In this document: positions 24,539 to 32,923 of the stretch, piece after piece
Numbering within the stretch: position 1 is the first letter of the stretch
Layout: each line of letters starts with the position of its first letter
NCBI GenBank assembly: GCA_013388555.1
Contig: JACAFD010000172.1
Coordinates: 1 to 32,923, forward strand
Length of the DNA stretch: 32,923 bases
DNA from: Nitrospirota bacterium
Lineage (GTDB): Bacteria; Nitrospirota; Nitrospiria; Nitrospirales; Nitrospiraceae
Reading direction: 5' to 3'
The notes under the pieces: model-generated
Database searches by the model: none
What the model saw: only the letters and a program-made list of their open reading frames with translations
Told to the model about the DNA's origin: nothing
Position numbers and translations under genes: made by a program

Positions 24539-24748
24539 ATGGTTATGACGACGATTTCATCGAAATTTCAAATTGTGATTCCCAAGGAAGTGCGGGAAAA
24601 GCTGCGTCTCACTCGGAAACAGCGGCTTCACGTCATGGCGAAAGGCGGGATCATCACCCTGGTGCGGGAAGTCCCCCTCAAGTCACTCCGTGGAGCGCTC
24701 AAAGGGTTGTCCAAAACCGACTTGCGGGAGAAGAAGGACCGATCATAA
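24539..24748 (+). CDS. AbrB/SpoVT-type antitoxin-like protein
   Basis: 69 residues, with AAGGAGG eight bases before the ATG. The swapped-hairpin AbrB fold is seen in TTISSKFQIVIPKEVREKLRLTRKQRLHVMAKGGIITLVRE. The tail LKSLRGALKGLSKTDLREKKDRS is the type that binds a PIN toxin in VapB antitoxins. No VapC-type gene follows directly; the next genes are a separate DUF433/DUF5615 pair. It may therefore be an orphan antitoxin or have lost its toxin. Confidence 0.75.
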   Translation: MVMTTISSKFQIVIPKEVREKLRLTRKQRLHVMAKGGIITLVREVPLKSLRGALKGLSKTDLREKKDRS

Positions 24749-24831
24749 CGGTACTGTTGAGATCCCTTTTTCATGGAAGGGGATGCTCCTCTAGCTTATA
24801 ATGCAGTTATTTCCTTCTGCGGAGGGCTACC

Positions 24832-25131
24832 ATGGACATTATGACGGCACCCCATATCGCGATTTCACAAGACGTAGCCGGCGGGAAACCTCGGATCGCA
24901 GGACACCGCATTACCGTGCAGCACATCGTCATCTGGCATGAGCGCATGGGGATGAGTGCAGATGAGATCGCCTCCAACCAGGGATTGACCTTAGCCGATG
25001 TCTATGCCGCGCTGACGTACTACTACGATCACCGCCAGGAGATTGATGAGGCCATCTTGGCTGATGACTCGTATGTCGTCGAACTTCGCAAGGGGATCAA
25101 GTCCAAGCTGAGCGGCAAGATCGGTGGCTGA
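24832..25131 (+). CDS. DUF433 protein, probable antitoxin
   Basis: 99 residues, GGAGG ahead of ATG. The DUF433 pattern is clear: HIAISQDVAGGKPRIAGHRITVQHIVIWHERMGMSADEIASNQGLTLADVYAALTYYYDHRQEID, a short winged/HTH fold that binds DNA in regulation of such pairs. The C-terminus carries the acidic-basic tail expected to wrap a partner. It overlaps the DUF5615 gene by 8 bp. A -10-like TATAAT sits at about 24796, without a clear -35. Confidence 0.85.
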   Translation: MDIMTAPHIAISQDVAGGKPRIAGHRITVQHIVIWHERMGMSADEIASNQGLTLADVYAALTYYYDHRQEIDEAILADDSYVVELRKGIKSKLSGKIGG

Positions 25132-25456
25132 GCGGATCAGGTTTTATATGGACGAGCATGTGGCGAAGTCTGTAACAGAGGGATTACGCAGGCGCGGCGT
25201 CGATGTGATTACGGTGCAAGAATTGGGGTTACAGGCAGCTGAGGACCAACAACACCTGCAGCGAGCGACTCAAGAAGGCCGCGTTGTGGTCACACAGGAT
25301 ACGGACTTTCTTCGTCTGCATGCAGCAGGGGTCTCTCATCGAGGCATTGTATACGCGCCTCAGCAGACACCGGTTCCCCATATGCTGAGAGCACTCATGC
25401 TGGTCCATGATGTCTTGACCGCCGAAGACATGATTCAACACGTCGAATTTCTGTAG
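25124..25456 (+). CDS. DUF5615 PIN-like protein, probable toxin
   Basis: 110 residues from GTG 25124; the internal ATG at 25148 would cut off the first strand. The DUF5615 family is a Mut7-C-like PIN relative: FYMDEHVAKSVTEGLRRRGVDVITVQELGLQAAEDQQHLQRATQEGRVVVTQDTDFLRLHAAGVSHRGIVY, with conserved acidic residues at MDEH and TQDTDF. It is usually paired with DUF433, as here, and predicted to be an RNase toxin. The two are translationally coupled. Confidence 0.85.
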   Translation: MAERIRFYMDEHVAKSVTEGLRRRGVDVITVQELGLQAAEDQQHLQRATQEGRVVVTQDTDFLRLHAAGVSHRGIVYAPQQTPVPHMLRALMLVHDVLTAEDMIQHVEFL

Positions 25457-28036: not shown

Positions 28037-29623
28037 ATGGCGAGACGGCTTGCTCATTCGATGTTCTACTGTTTCCAACTCCCAGCTCATCGCAGGTTTC
28101 TGAAGGCCTCAGAACGACTCGAGCTGGTGCAGCGTGCCAAACTTCAAGGCTATCTCCAGGCTAGTCGTCACACCCACTATGGAAGAGCGAAACAGTTCGA
28201 CCCAACGTGGGGCTACGAACGGTTTTCCAGCGAACATCCGATAACCGACTATACCTATTGGGAACCTCACATTTTGCACCAGAGAAAGAGTCGCGAACCT
28301 GTCCTCACGGTGGGGGACACTCCTTTTGAACCAACAAGTGGGTCCACTTCTCCACGGAAATGGATTCCCTTCCCCCCAGCATTTACCCAAGAGCTGTCGC
28401 TTGCCGCGTCAACCTGGTTGGTCGATCTGACACGTCGCTACCCTCGATTGTCTGGAGGGAGACAGTACTGGTCCCTATCGTGGCTGCCAACGGAGCTGCG
28501 CCAATTGGGAGGTTCCACTGACGATACCCGGGTGTTGCCGTTTTGGAAAAGACTGATGCTTTCGACTATACTCGCAGTCCCAGGCGCAGTCGGTACGTTA
28601 CCCAGCAGTGAAGCCAGCCGGTTAGCCACCATGACATACCTGGTCGCATGCCGCGACCTCCGCCTATTGTCGGTCTGGAGCCCTACGTTTCTAACCCAGT
28701 TGATCGATGACATTTCGCGCTACCGGAAGCAGATCGGGTATACACTACGGAAAGGATGTTGGCCCGGCACTCCCAATATGGGTGGCATCTCTCCTCCTTA
28801 CTCTCCCAGTGCTGCCACGTTGCTTGATAATTGGGATACTGCCGTTTCACCAGAGTTTCTGGCGAAACTGTGGCCCGAGTTGACGCTCATCAGTGCCTGG
28901 GATTCTTCAACCTCGGCAACATGGGCGCACGAGGTACGAGGCTTATTTCCTCATGCGTCGTTCCAAGGGAAAGGTCTTTGGGCGACGGAAGGTGCGATAA
29001 CAATCCCGTTCGAAGAGAGGTACCCCTTGGCCTTCATGAGCCATTTCTTCGAATTCCGTCTGCTTGAATCAGAGGAGATCGTGCCTTCATGGCAACTACA
29101 AATTGGTCAAAGGGTTCAACCGATCCTGACCACGGGATCCGGGCTATGGCGATATCAATTGCAGGATCAGCTCGAAGTCTCTGGATTTATGAATGAGGTT
29201 CCCTGTTTACGTTTTATCGGCCGCATCGGGGGATGTGACTTCGTCGGCGAGAAATTGGACACGCAGATTGTGACAACCGTACTGAACCAGCTCTCCGTCA
29301 ATTTTCAGATCAGATGCATCACGCTCGTGGCTTGCAGGGGAGCGGAACGACAACGCCCACGGTACGTTGTCCTGGCGGAGGGGAATGAACAGCTGCAAGC
29401 GAAAGTTGCAAGCACTCTCGAATCCAAGCTATTAGAGCTCCACCACTATCAAGTAGCGCGAGAGCAACACCAGCTCGATCCCGCTGGCGCCATGGTGCGC
29501 AAGGATGCGCTACAAATATACTCACGTCTGGCATCGGTCGCAATCGATGGAAATCGGAAGATAGAGGCCATCCTCCAGATCAAGGAGAACCTCCTTCGTG
29601 ACGAAGCTGTTATCAATACGTGA
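28037..29623 (+). CDS. GH3-family acyl-acid amide synthetase
   Basis: 528 residues. GH3 enzymes of the ANL superfamily adenylate a carboxylic acid with ATP and join it to an amine, best known from plant auxin and jasmonate conjugation. Visible: ATP-binding motif TSGSTSPRKW (about residue 100), the motif LWATEGAITIPFEERYPLAF (about 316), and YQLQDQLEVSGFMNEVPCLRFIGRIG (about 373), the hinge and FIGR segment. A long C-terminal domain follows. There is no signal peptide. The following Rieske gene overlaps by 26 bp, so the two are translated from one mRNA. The acid and amine substrates cannot be predicted. Confidence 0.85.
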   Translation: MARRLAHSMFYCFQLPAHRRFLKASERLELVQRAKLQGYLQASRHTHYGRAKQFDPTWGYERFSSEHPITDYTYWEPHILHQRKSREPVLTVGDTPFEPTSGSTSPRKWIPFPPAFTQELSLAASTWLVDLTRRYPRLSGGRQYWSLSWLPTELRQLGGSTDDTRVLPFWKRLMLSTILAVPGAVGTLPSSEASRLATMTYLVACRDLRLLSVWSPTFLTQLIDDISRYRKQIGYTLRKGCWPGTPNMGGISPPYSPSAATLLDNWDTAVSPEFLAKLWPELTLISAWDSSTSATWAHEVRGLFPHASFQGKGLWATEGAITIPFEERYPLAFMSHFFEFRLLESEEIVPSWQLQIGQRVQPILTTGSGLWRYQLQDQLEVSGFMNEVPCLRFIGRIGGCDFVGEKLDTQIVTTVLNQLSVNFQIRCITLVACRGAERQRPRYVVLAEGNEQLQAKVASTLESKLLELHHYQVAREQHQLDPAGAMVRKDALQIYSRLASVAIDGNRKIEAILQIKENLLRDEAVINT

Positions 29624-30671
29624 GCGCGATGGGGCGCTCATCAACAACTGGTACATTGCATGCTTGGCCGACGAGCTTGGGCCGCGGCGCACGCTGGCCA
29701 GAACGATCTACGATACTCCCCTTGTCCTGTTCCGTGACGAATCGGGGAGGCCGGCATGTTTCCCTGACCGATGTCTTCATCGACATGCCCAGCTCTCCAA
29801 GGGCATCGTGTGTAACGGGACACTTGCTTGCCCGTATCACGGTTGGACCTACGCGGGAGATGGTCGCCTGACGGAAGTGCCTTCGAATGGCCTGTCACAC
29901 CTTGGAGAGGCTTCCTCCTATCGTATTCAGACGTTCCCTGTCGTCGAACAAGACGGGTGTCTATGGGTGTGGATGGGTGAAGGAGCTCCAGACCCAGCCT
30001 CACCCCCTTTTCGGTTTCCCCACCACAATGACCCTGCCTGGTGTCAGTATTTCATGATTACCGACTTTGAGAACGAGGTGCTGAATCTTGTCGAGAACTT
30101 CATGGACGTCCCCCATACGGTTTTTGTCCACTCAGGCTGGTTTCGCCGGAGAAGCCGCCAACCGGTCCCTATTACAGTGGAGATGGAGAACGGGTCGGTT
30201 CTTGTGACCTATCAACAACCTGGAGACCGTATTGGGTTTAGCAGTTATGTATTGAACCCCACCAAAGAAGCGATGCTGCACACGGATCGATTTATCTTCC
30301 CCAATATCACACGAGTCGACTACACCTTTGGCCCGTCAAGTGGCTTTCTCATCATCAGTCAGTGCACGCCAATTGGGACGCTCGCCACACGCGTCTACAC
30401 GCGTATTCTCTATCGCATATTGAACCAGCGCTGGCTCGCCACAGCGCTGAAATGGTTCATGCAGTTCTACACTCGCCAAGTCATCGAACAAGATGTTCGC
30501 ATCATGGCAAACCAAGGTGCCAACTTACGGCAATGCCCCGATTACCAGTTCCACCATACCGAAGCTGACATCCCTCACAGAGCCATTGAAGAACTTCGTT
30601 GGCGAGGCGCAACAGACCCCTCATCCGTCTTCATCGCTTCCTCTATTACCAAAGGCACGCTGTGGATTTAG
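29598..30671 (+). CDS. Rieske non-heme iron oxygenase
   Basis: 357 residues from GTG 29598, with AAGGAG about 10 bases upstream. The Rieske [2Fe-2S] site is CLHRH (about residue 59) and CPYHGW (about 77). The mononuclear iron site is ENFMDVPHTVFVH (about 166-178), and the third ligand is likely D in EQDVRIM (about 298). These enzymes hydroxylate, desaturate or demethylate small molecules with electrons from a separate reductase, which is not encoded nearby. It overlaps GH3 and the next gene, so the three are one operon. The substrate is unknown; the product is presumably processed by GH3 and the GNAT-like partner. Confidence 0.88.
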   Translation: MTKLLSIRERDGALINNWYIACLADELGPRRTLARTIYDTPLVLFRDESGRPACFPDRCLHRHAQLSKGIVCNGTLACPYHGWTYAGDGRLTEVPSNGLSHLGEASSYRIQTFPVVEQDGCLWVWMGEGAPDPASPPFRFPHHNDPAWCQYFMITDFENEVLNLVENFMDVPHTVFVHSGWFRRRSRQPVPITVEMENGSVLVTYQQPGDRIGFSSYVLNPTKEAMLHTDRFIFPNITRVDYTFGPSSGFLIISQCTPIGTLATRVYTRILYRILNQRWLATALKWFMQFYTRQVIEQDVRIMANQGANLRQCPDYQFHHTEADIPHRAIEELRWRGATDPSSVFIASSITKGTLWI

Positions 30672-31849
30672 CAGAACTGGTAGCCTCCTGGCCGCTAACG
30701 TCGATCGCCTGTAACGCGGACAACCCTGACCTACTGAAATACCTCTCGAACTCTCCGATTTCGGGTCGGACCATTCGTCTTCGATACGATCGTAGTCCAG
30801 ATTTTTTCAAGCTGTTGCACTATCAAGCCGATCGACACGTCACGTTTATTTCGCGGAACTCCGGAGGAACCGTTACCGGAATGGGAAGCGTGTCGGTACG
30901 CGAGGGGTATCTTCACGGCGCTCCAACCCCCGTTGGATTCCTCAGTGATCTTCGCATCAGCCCAGACCGAGGGATTGCTCTCAATTGGCATCGATATTAT
31001 CAACAGCTGCTCGAGCAGAGCCACACCCTCAAAGAGCTCGACGGATGCAGCCACTTCGTGACCGCCGTGATCGACAGCAACGCGGTGGCCCAGCAGTCAT
31101 TGATCGTCCCGAAACGAAAACCCGGCTACACTTATGATCTGCTTGCCAAGTATGTGATGGTGAATATTCTGGGGCCCATCCCTTCTCTCTTCCGTCCAAG
31201 AGACTCGAAACCTCCTCCAGGCTACACCGTGACGCAGGGGAGCGCTGACGATCTCGATGAGCTCACGGATTTCCTTGAGCAACAGCATCGTTGCAGGCCT
31301 TTCGGATACTGTTTTCGTACCGGGGAGCTGGAGAGGCGACTGCGCGTATGGGACAGCCCCTCTGCGAGGTTCGCCCTGAATCAATTCATCATCATGAGGG
31401 GTGCCCGCGGTCGGATTCGAGGCTGTCTGGCTCCTTGGGCGCCAACCGACGCGAAGACCACGTTTGTCGACCGATTTGCTTTCAAAGTTCGATTACTGCG
31501 GCTAATCGGACGAGTCCTCACGGGGATCAAGTTTCCAAAGCACGGACAAGCGCTCAGAATCCTGTACCTCACACACGTCGAGACGGACCTGACGCTTCCT
31601 CTCGCTGAAAGACAGCGCGTATTTCGAGCGATGCTTGATCACGTCGTGGACTCAACGCGCAACCGCGATTGGCATATCCTGGCATTTGCCGACTTTGTAC
31701 AAGATCCGCTGGCTACAGACCTGGCGGAGTATGTGACGTATCGTGTCCCTATGGCTCTCTATCAGGTCCGTTCGAGTCGACCGGAGCCTAGGGGAATCGC
31801 TTCGCCTTTCGGCGCGGTTTCACCGGGATTCGAAATCGCGCTTGTCTGA
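30662..31849 (+). CDS. GNAT-like N-acyltransferase-type protein
   Basis: 395 residues from GTG 30662 (AAAGG upstream), overlapping the Rieske stop by 10 bp; a TTG at 30599 is a longer alternative. The middle of the N-terminal half (VTGMGSVSVREGYLHGAPTPVGFLSDLRISPDRGIALNWHRYYQQLLE) resembles the core strand and acetyl-CoA-binding helix of GNAT proteins. The C-terminal half (DDLDELTDFLEQQHRCRPFGY... IIMRGARGRIRGCLAPWAP) looks like a second GNAT module. No exact family is recognised. A role in acyl transfer within the GH3/Rieske pathway is an inference from context. It ends one base before the convergent desaturase. Confidence 0.55.
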   Translation: MDLAELVASWPLTSIACNADNPDLLKYLSNSPISGRTIRLRYDRSPDFFKLLHYQADRHVTFISRNSGGTVTGMGSVSVREGYLHGAPTPVGFLSDLRISPDRGIALNWHRYYQQLLEQSHTLKELDGCSHFVTAVIDSNAVAQQSLIVPKRKPGYTYDLLAKYVMVNILGPIPSLFRPRDSKPPPGYTVTQGSADDLDELTDFLEQQHRCRPFGYCFRTGELERRLRVWDSPSARFALNQFIIMRGARGRIRGCLAPWAPTDAKTTFVDRFAFKVRLLRLIGRVLTGIKFPKHGQALRILYLTHVETDLTLPLAERQRVFRAMLDHVVDSTRNRDWHILAFADFVQDPLATDLAEYVTYRVPMALYQVRSSRPEPRGIASPFGAVSPGFEIALV

Positions 31850-31850
31850 A

Positions 31851-32822
31851 TCAGAAATAGGTTTTCCTAATGGACGAAAGATCGGCAGGGAGCGGTTCGG
31901 GACACCGAAAGATAAGAAGATAACGGTACCACAGGGGCTGCGTCTCCTTAAGATCTGTGAGGGCGTGGGCGTCTTGCCAGGGAGCGGCAGGATGTCGATG
32001 GTGCGTCAGATTGTAGTTGAAGTTGAGAAACAGCCAGCGAACAAGGAGCGGCGCACGAAGGTTGTAGGCACCCTCGACACGATCCAAGGGGGTTCTGAGG
32101 TGGTAGATCCATTGCAGCGACGACCACGTGAAGGCAAACGCCGCATAGGCCACGCTGAGGACCGTCCAATTCCAATCCAACAATAGAATGGCAGAAACCC
32201 AGACGAGCAGGCCTACAGCCGCTTCTACGCGCAACCGCATCCAGTCGCGAGACGAAAACTCGGCAAACGCCAGAAAGTAGCCGTTCATAGACTTGGCAGG
32301 CCTGTTCAATCCGAGCCGATACCGATAGGGGATAAACGGCAGAAGGATACTGGCGACAAATGCCCCAAGCCAGATGCCGCCCAAAATGGCGAAGTAATAC
32401 AGCAAAATCTTCCTTGTAGGGCTTTCATCCGGAAAGATGTATTCAGCGATTTCGGCGCGCGAACGGTTCCTGACGTGATGCGCCTCATGGTTCACCCTGA
32501 ACAGCGTATAGGCCGTGCCGAAGATGGTTCCCTCGATCACTCCCAGCGTCCAGTTCGCCCAAGACGTTGGATGGCCTTGGTCATGAAAGCATTCATGCAT
32601 GACAGAGAACACGCCTTGCATCATCAGGCAAAACAGGATAAGAACCACACCCTTCCACAGTATGCTGCTTGGCGAATGCAGAAACGAGATCATGATTGCC
32701 CAGGCGAGGACGTGGCCTGTTCCGATCAGGAGGTTCATGGTCCCATAGTTCATTTTCACGGTCAGCTTCTGTTGTCCGACGCCACCGTTGGCGATCGACG
32801 CTGAAAGATTCTGGCGGTTCAT
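31851..32822 (-). CDS. Fatty acid desaturase
   Basis: 323 residues, with GAGAGGTG ahead of the ATG. Three histidine boxes are present: HECFHDQGH (76-84), HEAHH (112-116) and NLTHHRHP (271-278), which bind the diiron centre. Several membrane segments (about residues 31-72, 140-165 and 203-230) fit an integral membrane enzyme that acts on acyl chains of lipids or acyl carriers; related proteins are beta-carotene ketolases and hydroxylases. It is convergent with the GH3-Rieske-GNAT operon with one base between stops. An upstream gene outside the window may be in the same operon, since an open frame on the minus strand runs to the edge and ends overlapping the ATG by four bases. Confidence 0.9.
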   Translation of the reverse strand: MNRQNLSASIANGGVGQQKLTVKMNYGTMNLLIGTGHVLAWAIMISFLHSPSSILWKGVVLILFCLMMQGVFSVMHECFHDQGHPTSWANWTLGVIEGTIFGTAYTLFRVNHEAHHVRNRSRAEIAEYIFPDESPTRKILLYYFAILGGIWLGAFVASILLPFIPYRYRLGLNRPAKSMNGYFLAFAEFSSRDWMRLRVEAAVGLLVWVSAILLLDWNWTVLSVAYAAFAFTWSSLQWIYHLRTPLDRVEGAYNLRAPLLVRWLFLNFNYNLTHHRHPAAPWQDAHALTDLKETQPLWYRYLLIFRCPEPLPADLSSIRKTYF

Positions 32823-32923
32823 GCGACACCTCTCACATCATGACGCCCCCGGTGCAGCGAGGGACCAGTGGCGACCCCACGGGTTCCATGAGTACGCGAA
32901 CGTTTACCCTCAAAGCCCAGACA

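Follow-up and report, generated by a model that had tools for sequence, protein, structure and literature searches.

Four genes at the right-hand end of a 32,923-bp contig of a Nitrospirota bacterium (contig C196, the whole of which is the window analyzed here and which ends at 32923) encode a GH3-family amide synthetase, a Rieske oxygenase, a GNAT-like protein that we call GNAT2, and a membrane desaturase, Des1. That these genes belong to one unit is well supported: they make up half of a conserved set of about eight genes plus lineage-specific extras, met elsewhere in bacterial predators and in a few distant groups, and not the complete four-gene set of the initial annotation, and the contig ends within the cluster. 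By analogy with characterized aminolipid enzymes, we give roughly even chances to the cluster being a pathway for an oxidized N-acyl-amino-acid lipid resembling ornithine lipids, in which the GH3 enzyme would make the amide.

All four open reading frames were recovered where they had originally been placed (Table 1), with the same 26-bp overlap between the GH3 and Rieske genes, an overlap of about 10 bp between the Rieske and GNAT2 genes, and a single base (31850) between GNAT2 and the convergent Des1. The grouping of the first three genes into one operon is supported. The longest reading frame of GNAT2 begins at a TTG at 30599, while the GTG at 30662 gives a 10-bp overlap with the Rieske gene. 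The latter is the probable start because the same junction, (T/G)TGGATTTA(A/G), is repeated in several Bdellovibrionota loci, in which, as here, the GNAT2 start codon lies in another frame within the terminal part of the Rieske gene (...WI-stop).

The GH3, Rieske, and desaturase assignments, made initially from motifs, were borne out by Pfam scores well above the cutoffs. The GH3 protein matches PF03321 with 86.8 bits (cutoff 23.6) and GH3_M (PF23571) with 60.3 bits, and its nucleotide-binding motifs (SG-S and ATE) are intact, as TSGSTS at residue 100 and ATEG at residue 316. Pfam detected no GH3_C domain in it and a weak one in the Citrobacter homologue. Its identity to homologues from similar clusters is 36% for Acinetobacter and 33% for Burkholderia. 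The Rieske protein scores 76.3 bits against PF00355 (cutoff 20.3) and retains both its [2Fe-2S] ligands (C-x-H...C-x-x-H, C59..H81) and its mononuclear-iron site (N-x-x-D-x-x-H-x4-H, N167FMDVPHTVFVH, with the Asp at 299); its nearest solved relatives are DdmC (6e-30), SxtT, and SxtDIOX. An early assignment to a vanillate- or chlorophyll-type pathway was abandoned, the matches to those Pfam C-terminal families being weak. Des1 scores 91.5 bits against PF00487 (cutoff 29.7) and carries the histidine boxes HECFH and HEAHH, with a variant third box, NLTHH, instead of H/Q-x-x-HH. It is 52% identical to the desaturase of the Burkholderia cluster and 49% identical to those of the Myxococcota clusters, and a search of 72,556 plasmid records gave only two matches to it, both inside GH3 clusters. 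Two Acinetobacter baumannii "plasmid" records (NZ_CP104448.1 and NZ_CP064203.1), at ∼4 Mb, are apparently mislabeled chromosomes.

The missing part of the cluster appears to lie on a second contig, C268. In related loci GNAT2 is accompanied by a smaller protein, GNAT1, whose model (predicted local distance difference test score [pLDDT] of 90.9) is likewise a GNAT, and a GNAT1 profile gave one strong match in the same genome (E value of 1.8e-61), on this 4,563-bp contig. The start of C268 matches the last 320 bp of the window with 98.75% identity (4 mismatches) and also holds the N terminus of Des1. Since the overlap is imperfect we can only infer the join, which is supported by the conserved gene content elsewhere. 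Beyond Des1, C268 carries an alpha/beta-hydrolase-like protein (ABH), an OlsC-like acyl hydroxylase, a second desaturase (Des2), GNAT1, and LemA. The hydroxylase scores 243 bits against the NCBIfam OlsC model (NF052565; E value of 2.6e-72) compared to 129 bits against LpxO.

A search with the Rieske alignment retrieved 26 close relatives from 291 Bdellovibrionota genomes (two seed genomes included) and 7 from 284 Myxococcota genomes, which together with Burkholderia form a set of 34 Rieske-clade loci, several of them clipped by contig ends. GH3 is present at 29 of these, GNAT2 at 27, GNAT1 at 25, an FA_desaturase at 19, an MMPL exporter at 17, and PAP2 at 7, and all four families of the window (GH3, Rieske, GNAT, and FA_desaturase) occur together at 13. 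At six more remote Rieske loci, which served as controls, neither GH3 nor GNAT genes were present (0/6 for each); for GH3 the difference has a Fisher P value of 1.2e-4, ignoring relatedness. Rare co-occurrence had been named as the finding that would speak against a joint pathway, and the families instead co-occur in several phyla. A replicon of Burkholderia arboris (L017), found by tblastn among the plasmid records, carries GNAT1, GNAT2, ABH, a PF10118 enzyme, Des1, GH3, Rieske, and Des2; two Myxococcota loci (L175 and L179) carry GNAT1, ABH, Des1, GH3, Rieske, Des2, and GNAT2, and a third (L177) has nearly the same set without GNAT2. It could be argued that the window genes lie together by chance in a mobile island and function independently, given the tRNA gene, integrase, and transposase in the region. 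The recurrence of the same families across Bdellovibrionota, Myxococcota, and Burkholderia, the conserved gene overlap, and their absence from the control Rieske loci make this highly improbable.

A scan of genome contigs with the GH3 alignment gave 80 loci (L021-L100), mostly from Acinetobacter, Alcanivorax, Aquabacterium, Moritella, and Desulfobacterota, with GNAT1 at 79 and GNAT2 at 75 but a Rieske gene at only two. GH3, GNAT1, and GNAT2 are the core in most relatives, and the GNAT is the constant partner of GH3 and not an accessory. In Bdellovibrionota, Myxococcota, Burkholderia, and the window genome, this core has the Rieske oxygenase and membrane desaturases as conserved partners; other lineages replace or add oxidases (B12-radical SAM and PF10118 di-iron enzymes), PAP2, and exporters. 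One such locus (L019), on Citrobacter portucalensis plasmid NZ_CP134684.1, has GNAT1, GH3, five B12-binding radical SAM genes, GNAT2, PAP2, and a desaturase; the plasmid is of the IncF type and comes from a gull isolate. The Rieske-free core is common in Alcanivorax, Oleispira, Thalassolituus, Alkanindiges, Acinetobacter, and Aquabacterium, genera associated with hydrocarbon use. A sister cluster of conserved gene order was also seen in Bdellovibrionota and Myxococcota (L148-L153 and L181-L185). It combines GH3 and, in most cases, GNAT1 with as many as three or four Rieske genes and includes ferritin-like di-iron proteins, a sterol-desaturase-like enzyme, an LbH-type protein, and a 2Fe-2S ferredoxin.

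Instead of a membrane aminolipid, the product may be a secreted small-molecule lipoamide (for example, a signaling, antibiotic, or siderophore-like amide), assembled by GH3 and the GNATs and decorated by the Rieske enzyme and desaturases, a possibility that we take seriously while leaning away from it. In its favor, the Acinetobacter core adjoins MFS/HlyD/TolC genes and RND-like pumps stand beside ∼30 of the 80 GH3 loci; condensation-like acyltransferases are found at 32 of the 80, the patchy, lineage-specific oxidases (B12-radical SAM, PF10118 di-iron, and several Rieske genes) resemble secondary metabolism, and the window Rieske protein is closest in sequence to DdmC and SxtT. However, no polyketide synthase, nonribosomal peptide synthetase, or carrier protein was recognized in the loci read closely, the MMPL, OlsC-like, PAP2, and FA_desaturase genes represent lipid-type functions, and the closest precedent for the GH3 protein is an enzyme that makes an aminolipid.

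GNAT2 was not recognized as a member of any family by Pfam or NCBIfam. Although Pfam is silent, the motif-based call of a GNAT-like protein agrees with its AlphaFold2 model (pLDDT of 89 and predicted template modeling score of 0.90, with an alignment of 33 relatives as input), which has a tandem GNAT fold and is placed by Foldseek and VIA-align among tandem GNATs and N-myristoyltransferases (NMTs). The best VIA-align match is 4uwi (Z score of 23.1 over 333 residues, 4.2 Å, 8% identity), and many NMTs match over the whole length with Z scores of 20.8 to 23.1 and 8 to 11% identity. The tandem GNAT 7q3a, which is of a different kind, also reaches a Z score of 21.1, so the fold is not exclusive to NMTs and is insufficient on its own to call GNAT2 one; no sequence match to NMTs was found in Pfam or among the PDB profile hits. 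In NMT catalysis the C-terminal carboxylate serves as the base. The last residue of the GNAT2 model aligns with the last residue of NMT, and the C termini of nearly all complete GNAT2 relatives coincide, the residue four before the last being typically acidic. This arrangement is suggestive, without being proof, of an NMT-like role for the C-terminal carboxylate of GNAT2. In the Rieske-associated branch of GNAT2, which includes the window protein, the usual acyl coenzyme A loop (RRRGIA in Aquabacterium) is altered (alignment A4), and this sequence difference may reflect a different acyl donor.

In the planctomycete Singulisphaera acidiphila, the GH3 enzyme OlsH, which forms an amide from fatty acids and ornithine, makes ornithine lipid together with the alpha/beta-hydrolase OlsI, and GH3 homologues are widespread among bacteria (PMC12493201). 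OlsH was the only bacterial GH3 enzyme for which we found a described function. In the pathway we propose, the window GH3 would, like OlsH, adenylate a long-chain (or N-acyl) carboxylic acid and couple it to the amino group of an amino acid. GNAT1 and/or GNAT2 would then add a second acyl group, GNAT2 in the manner of an NMT and perhaps with its own C-terminal carboxylate as the base, while ABH could be an O-acyltransferase as OlsI is. The OlsC-like dioxygenase would hydroxylate an acyl chain, and Des1, Des2, and the Rieske enzyme would desaturate or hydroxylate the chain or the amino acid headgroup. The product would be an oxidized, acylated aminolipid, exported by the MMPL protein in the Bdellovibrionota versions. 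Of the modified fatty-acyl or aryl amide envisaged in the initial annotation, the acyl amide is supported, whereas the nearest precedents (OlsH/OlsI and OlsC) point to an aminolipid and away from an aryl amide.

Several observations weigh against this pathway. The window GH3 scores only 14.9 bits against the OlsH equivalog model (NF052613; cutoff 620), the OlsC-like protein stays below the OlsC equivalog cutoff of 450 bits, and Des2 reaches 56.6 bits against GntB (NF041365; cutoff 380), its best NCBIfam match. GntB is likewise the best, but weak, match of the Des2-like enzymes (34 to 76 bits). Des1 has no good match to any characterized enzyme. The nucleophile elbow of ABH reads HCKGG on C268 (locus L157), where the Burkholderia homologue has HSKGG, and no OlsI model matched ABH. 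The OlsC-like gene occurs at only one other Rieske-clade locus, and the join of C196 and C268, resting on 320 bp with 4 mismatches, may involve a strain variant. Finally, the Rieske enzyme had no electron transfer partner that could be recognized near the window.

A possible candidate for such a partner comes from the relatives. An RnfD-like membrane domain fused to FG-GAP/ASPIC-UnbV repeats is encoded near the Rieske gene at 25 of the 34 loci (at L062:5085-7874 and 24 others), in some cases overlapping it, and possibly acts as its electron donor. UnbU and UnbV occur as separate proteins in enediyne clusters. None was seen by the window, and a search of the same genome with PF07593 (UnbV) gave no match, the control likewise matching nowhere, so that this does not amount to absence.

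The same enzymes might instead serve to break down or detoxify an amphiphile, which the Rieske and membrane oxygenases would open and the GH3 and GNAT proteins inactivate by conjugation, much as plant GH3 enzymes conjugate hormones. The closeness of the Rieske protein to the demethylase DdmC would agree with this, but no transporter, regulator, or downstream catabolic gene was seen near the window cluster, the two GNATs, the OlsC-like enzyme, and the desaturases look biosynthetic, and export genes are conserved in Bdellovibrionota. We regard a catabolic role as improbable.

Table 1. Positions of the cluster genes and of flanking features on contigs C196 (the window) and C268
Feature	Contig	Position	Strand	Details	Basis
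GH3-family acyl-adenylating amide synthetase	C196	28037..29623	+	528 aa	PF03321, PF23571
Rieske non-haem iron oxygenase	C196	29598..30671	+	357 aa, GTG start	PF00355
GNAT2, tandem-GNAT protein, N-myristoyltransferase-like predicted fold	C196	30662..31849	+	395 aa, GTG start at 30662 (probable)	AlphaFold2 model
Des1, membrane FA_desaturase-family di-iron enzyme	C196	31851..32822	-	323 aa	PF00487
Overlap with contig G000:C268 (locus L157)	C196	32604..32923	.	320 bp, 98.75% identity	
Alpha/beta-hydrolase-like protein (ABH)	C268	to 1180	+	start uncertain	
OlsC-like acyl hydroxylase	C268	1174-1911	+	PF05118	Pfam, NCBIfam
Des2, second FA_desaturase	C268	1837-2934	-		best NCBIfam match GntB
GNAT1	C268	2947-3951	-		GNAT1 profile, E 1.8e-61
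LemA	C268	3973-4545	+		
tRNA-Glu(CTC), left flank of presumed integration site	C196	22008..22085	+		ARAGORN
Tyrosine recombinase beside tRNA	C196	22140..23660	-		PF00589, 84.9 bits
IS-type transposase (rve domains), between integrase and cluster	C196	26193..26987	+		PF13683, 99.3 bits; PF00665, 62.6 bits

The Rieske gene of this clade was found in 1 of 296 genomes of the phylum, that of the window itself, and the synteny that was to be mapped in Nitrospira is not a trait there. No relative of the window GH3 was found in the same-genus genomes searched, and the few GH3s of the same family and order are remote (22 to 29% identity); vertical inheritance of GH3 was rejected, as other Nitrospirota GH3s form a separate clade. 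In the trees, the window Rieske sits inside a Bdellovibrionota clade (27 rows, support of 100/99) and the window GH3 groups with five Bdellovibrionota cluster GH3s and one proteobacterial row (SH-like approximate likelihood ratio test support of 98). With no clade Rieske in the related genomes searched and their GH3s in a separate clade, sequence comparison shows that the cluster was laterally acquired. Des1 and Des2 have their closest counterparts in Burkholderia or Myxococcota, so the donor history may be mixed. The tRNA-Glu gene with its adjoining integrase and the transposase upstream of the cluster fit an island, but a tRNA-derived attachment repeat was searched for on the far side of the cluster and not found, so the island borders are not proven. 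The right-hand neighbor, lemA on C268, is only 36% identical to the lemA of the genus and hence does not mark a known chromosomal site. Within the presumed island, window positions 24539 to 25456 hold a small gene for a MazE-like antitoxin and one of the DUF5615 PIN-like type, which may represent toxin-antitoxin pairs.

We tentatively suggest, though we consider it short of probable, that these loci represent an uncharacterized class of bacterial aminolipid or lipoamide clusters, built on a GH3 ligase and an NMT-like tandem GNAT that takes its own C-terminal carboxylate as the base; oxygenases of the Rieske and membrane di-iron types would elaborate the product, and the clusters would be widespread among bacterial predators and move between phyla. 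A conserved GH3-GNAT-GNAT core with defined oxidative tailoring genes would offer a concrete, clonable route to a new lipid class, in a core that spans Acinetobacter, hydrocarbon-associated marine genera, Myxococcota, and Bdellovibrionota. GNAT2 would be a bacterial counterpart of the NMT fold working on small molecules, and the cluster could account for some of the lipid chemistry of bacterial predators that is still unexplored. That it was transferred to a Nitrospira-like genome suggests a product useful beyond predation.

The view that no pathway with this combination of genes had been described still stands, as we found neither such a pathway nor a published account of this cluster in a literature search covering few subscription journals. 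The type of chemistry, a GH3-made aminolipid, has a precedent from 2025; what is new to us is the combination of genes, together with the NMT-like partner and the oxidative set. Like the OlsH/OlsI pathway, the cluster pairs a GH3-family enzyme expected to form an amide with an alpha/beta-hydrolase; unlike it, the cluster adds two GNATs, a Rieske oxygenase, two FA_desaturase enzymes, and an OlsC-like hydroxylase, and no OlsG N-methyltransferase was seen. The PF05118 enzyme on C268 is much closer to OlsC, the ornithine-lipid acyl 2-hydroxylase, than to LpxO. GntB, the membrane arginine hydroxylase of guanitoxin biosynthesis, weakly resembles the Des2-type enzymes, whereas the window Des1 does not match it. 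GNAT2 shares with eukaryotic NMTs the whole-length predicted fold, the aligned C terminus, and homologues that end at the same position, but it is bacterial, lies in a small-molecule gene cluster, and has no sequence match to them. Further counterparts are the GNAT1-GH3-GNAT2 loci of Acinetobacter, Alcanivorax, Aquabacterium, Moritella, and Desulfobacterota, which share a homologous core with the window cluster but lack the Rieske gene, have almost no desaturase, and contain efflux pumps or condensation-like acyltransferases.

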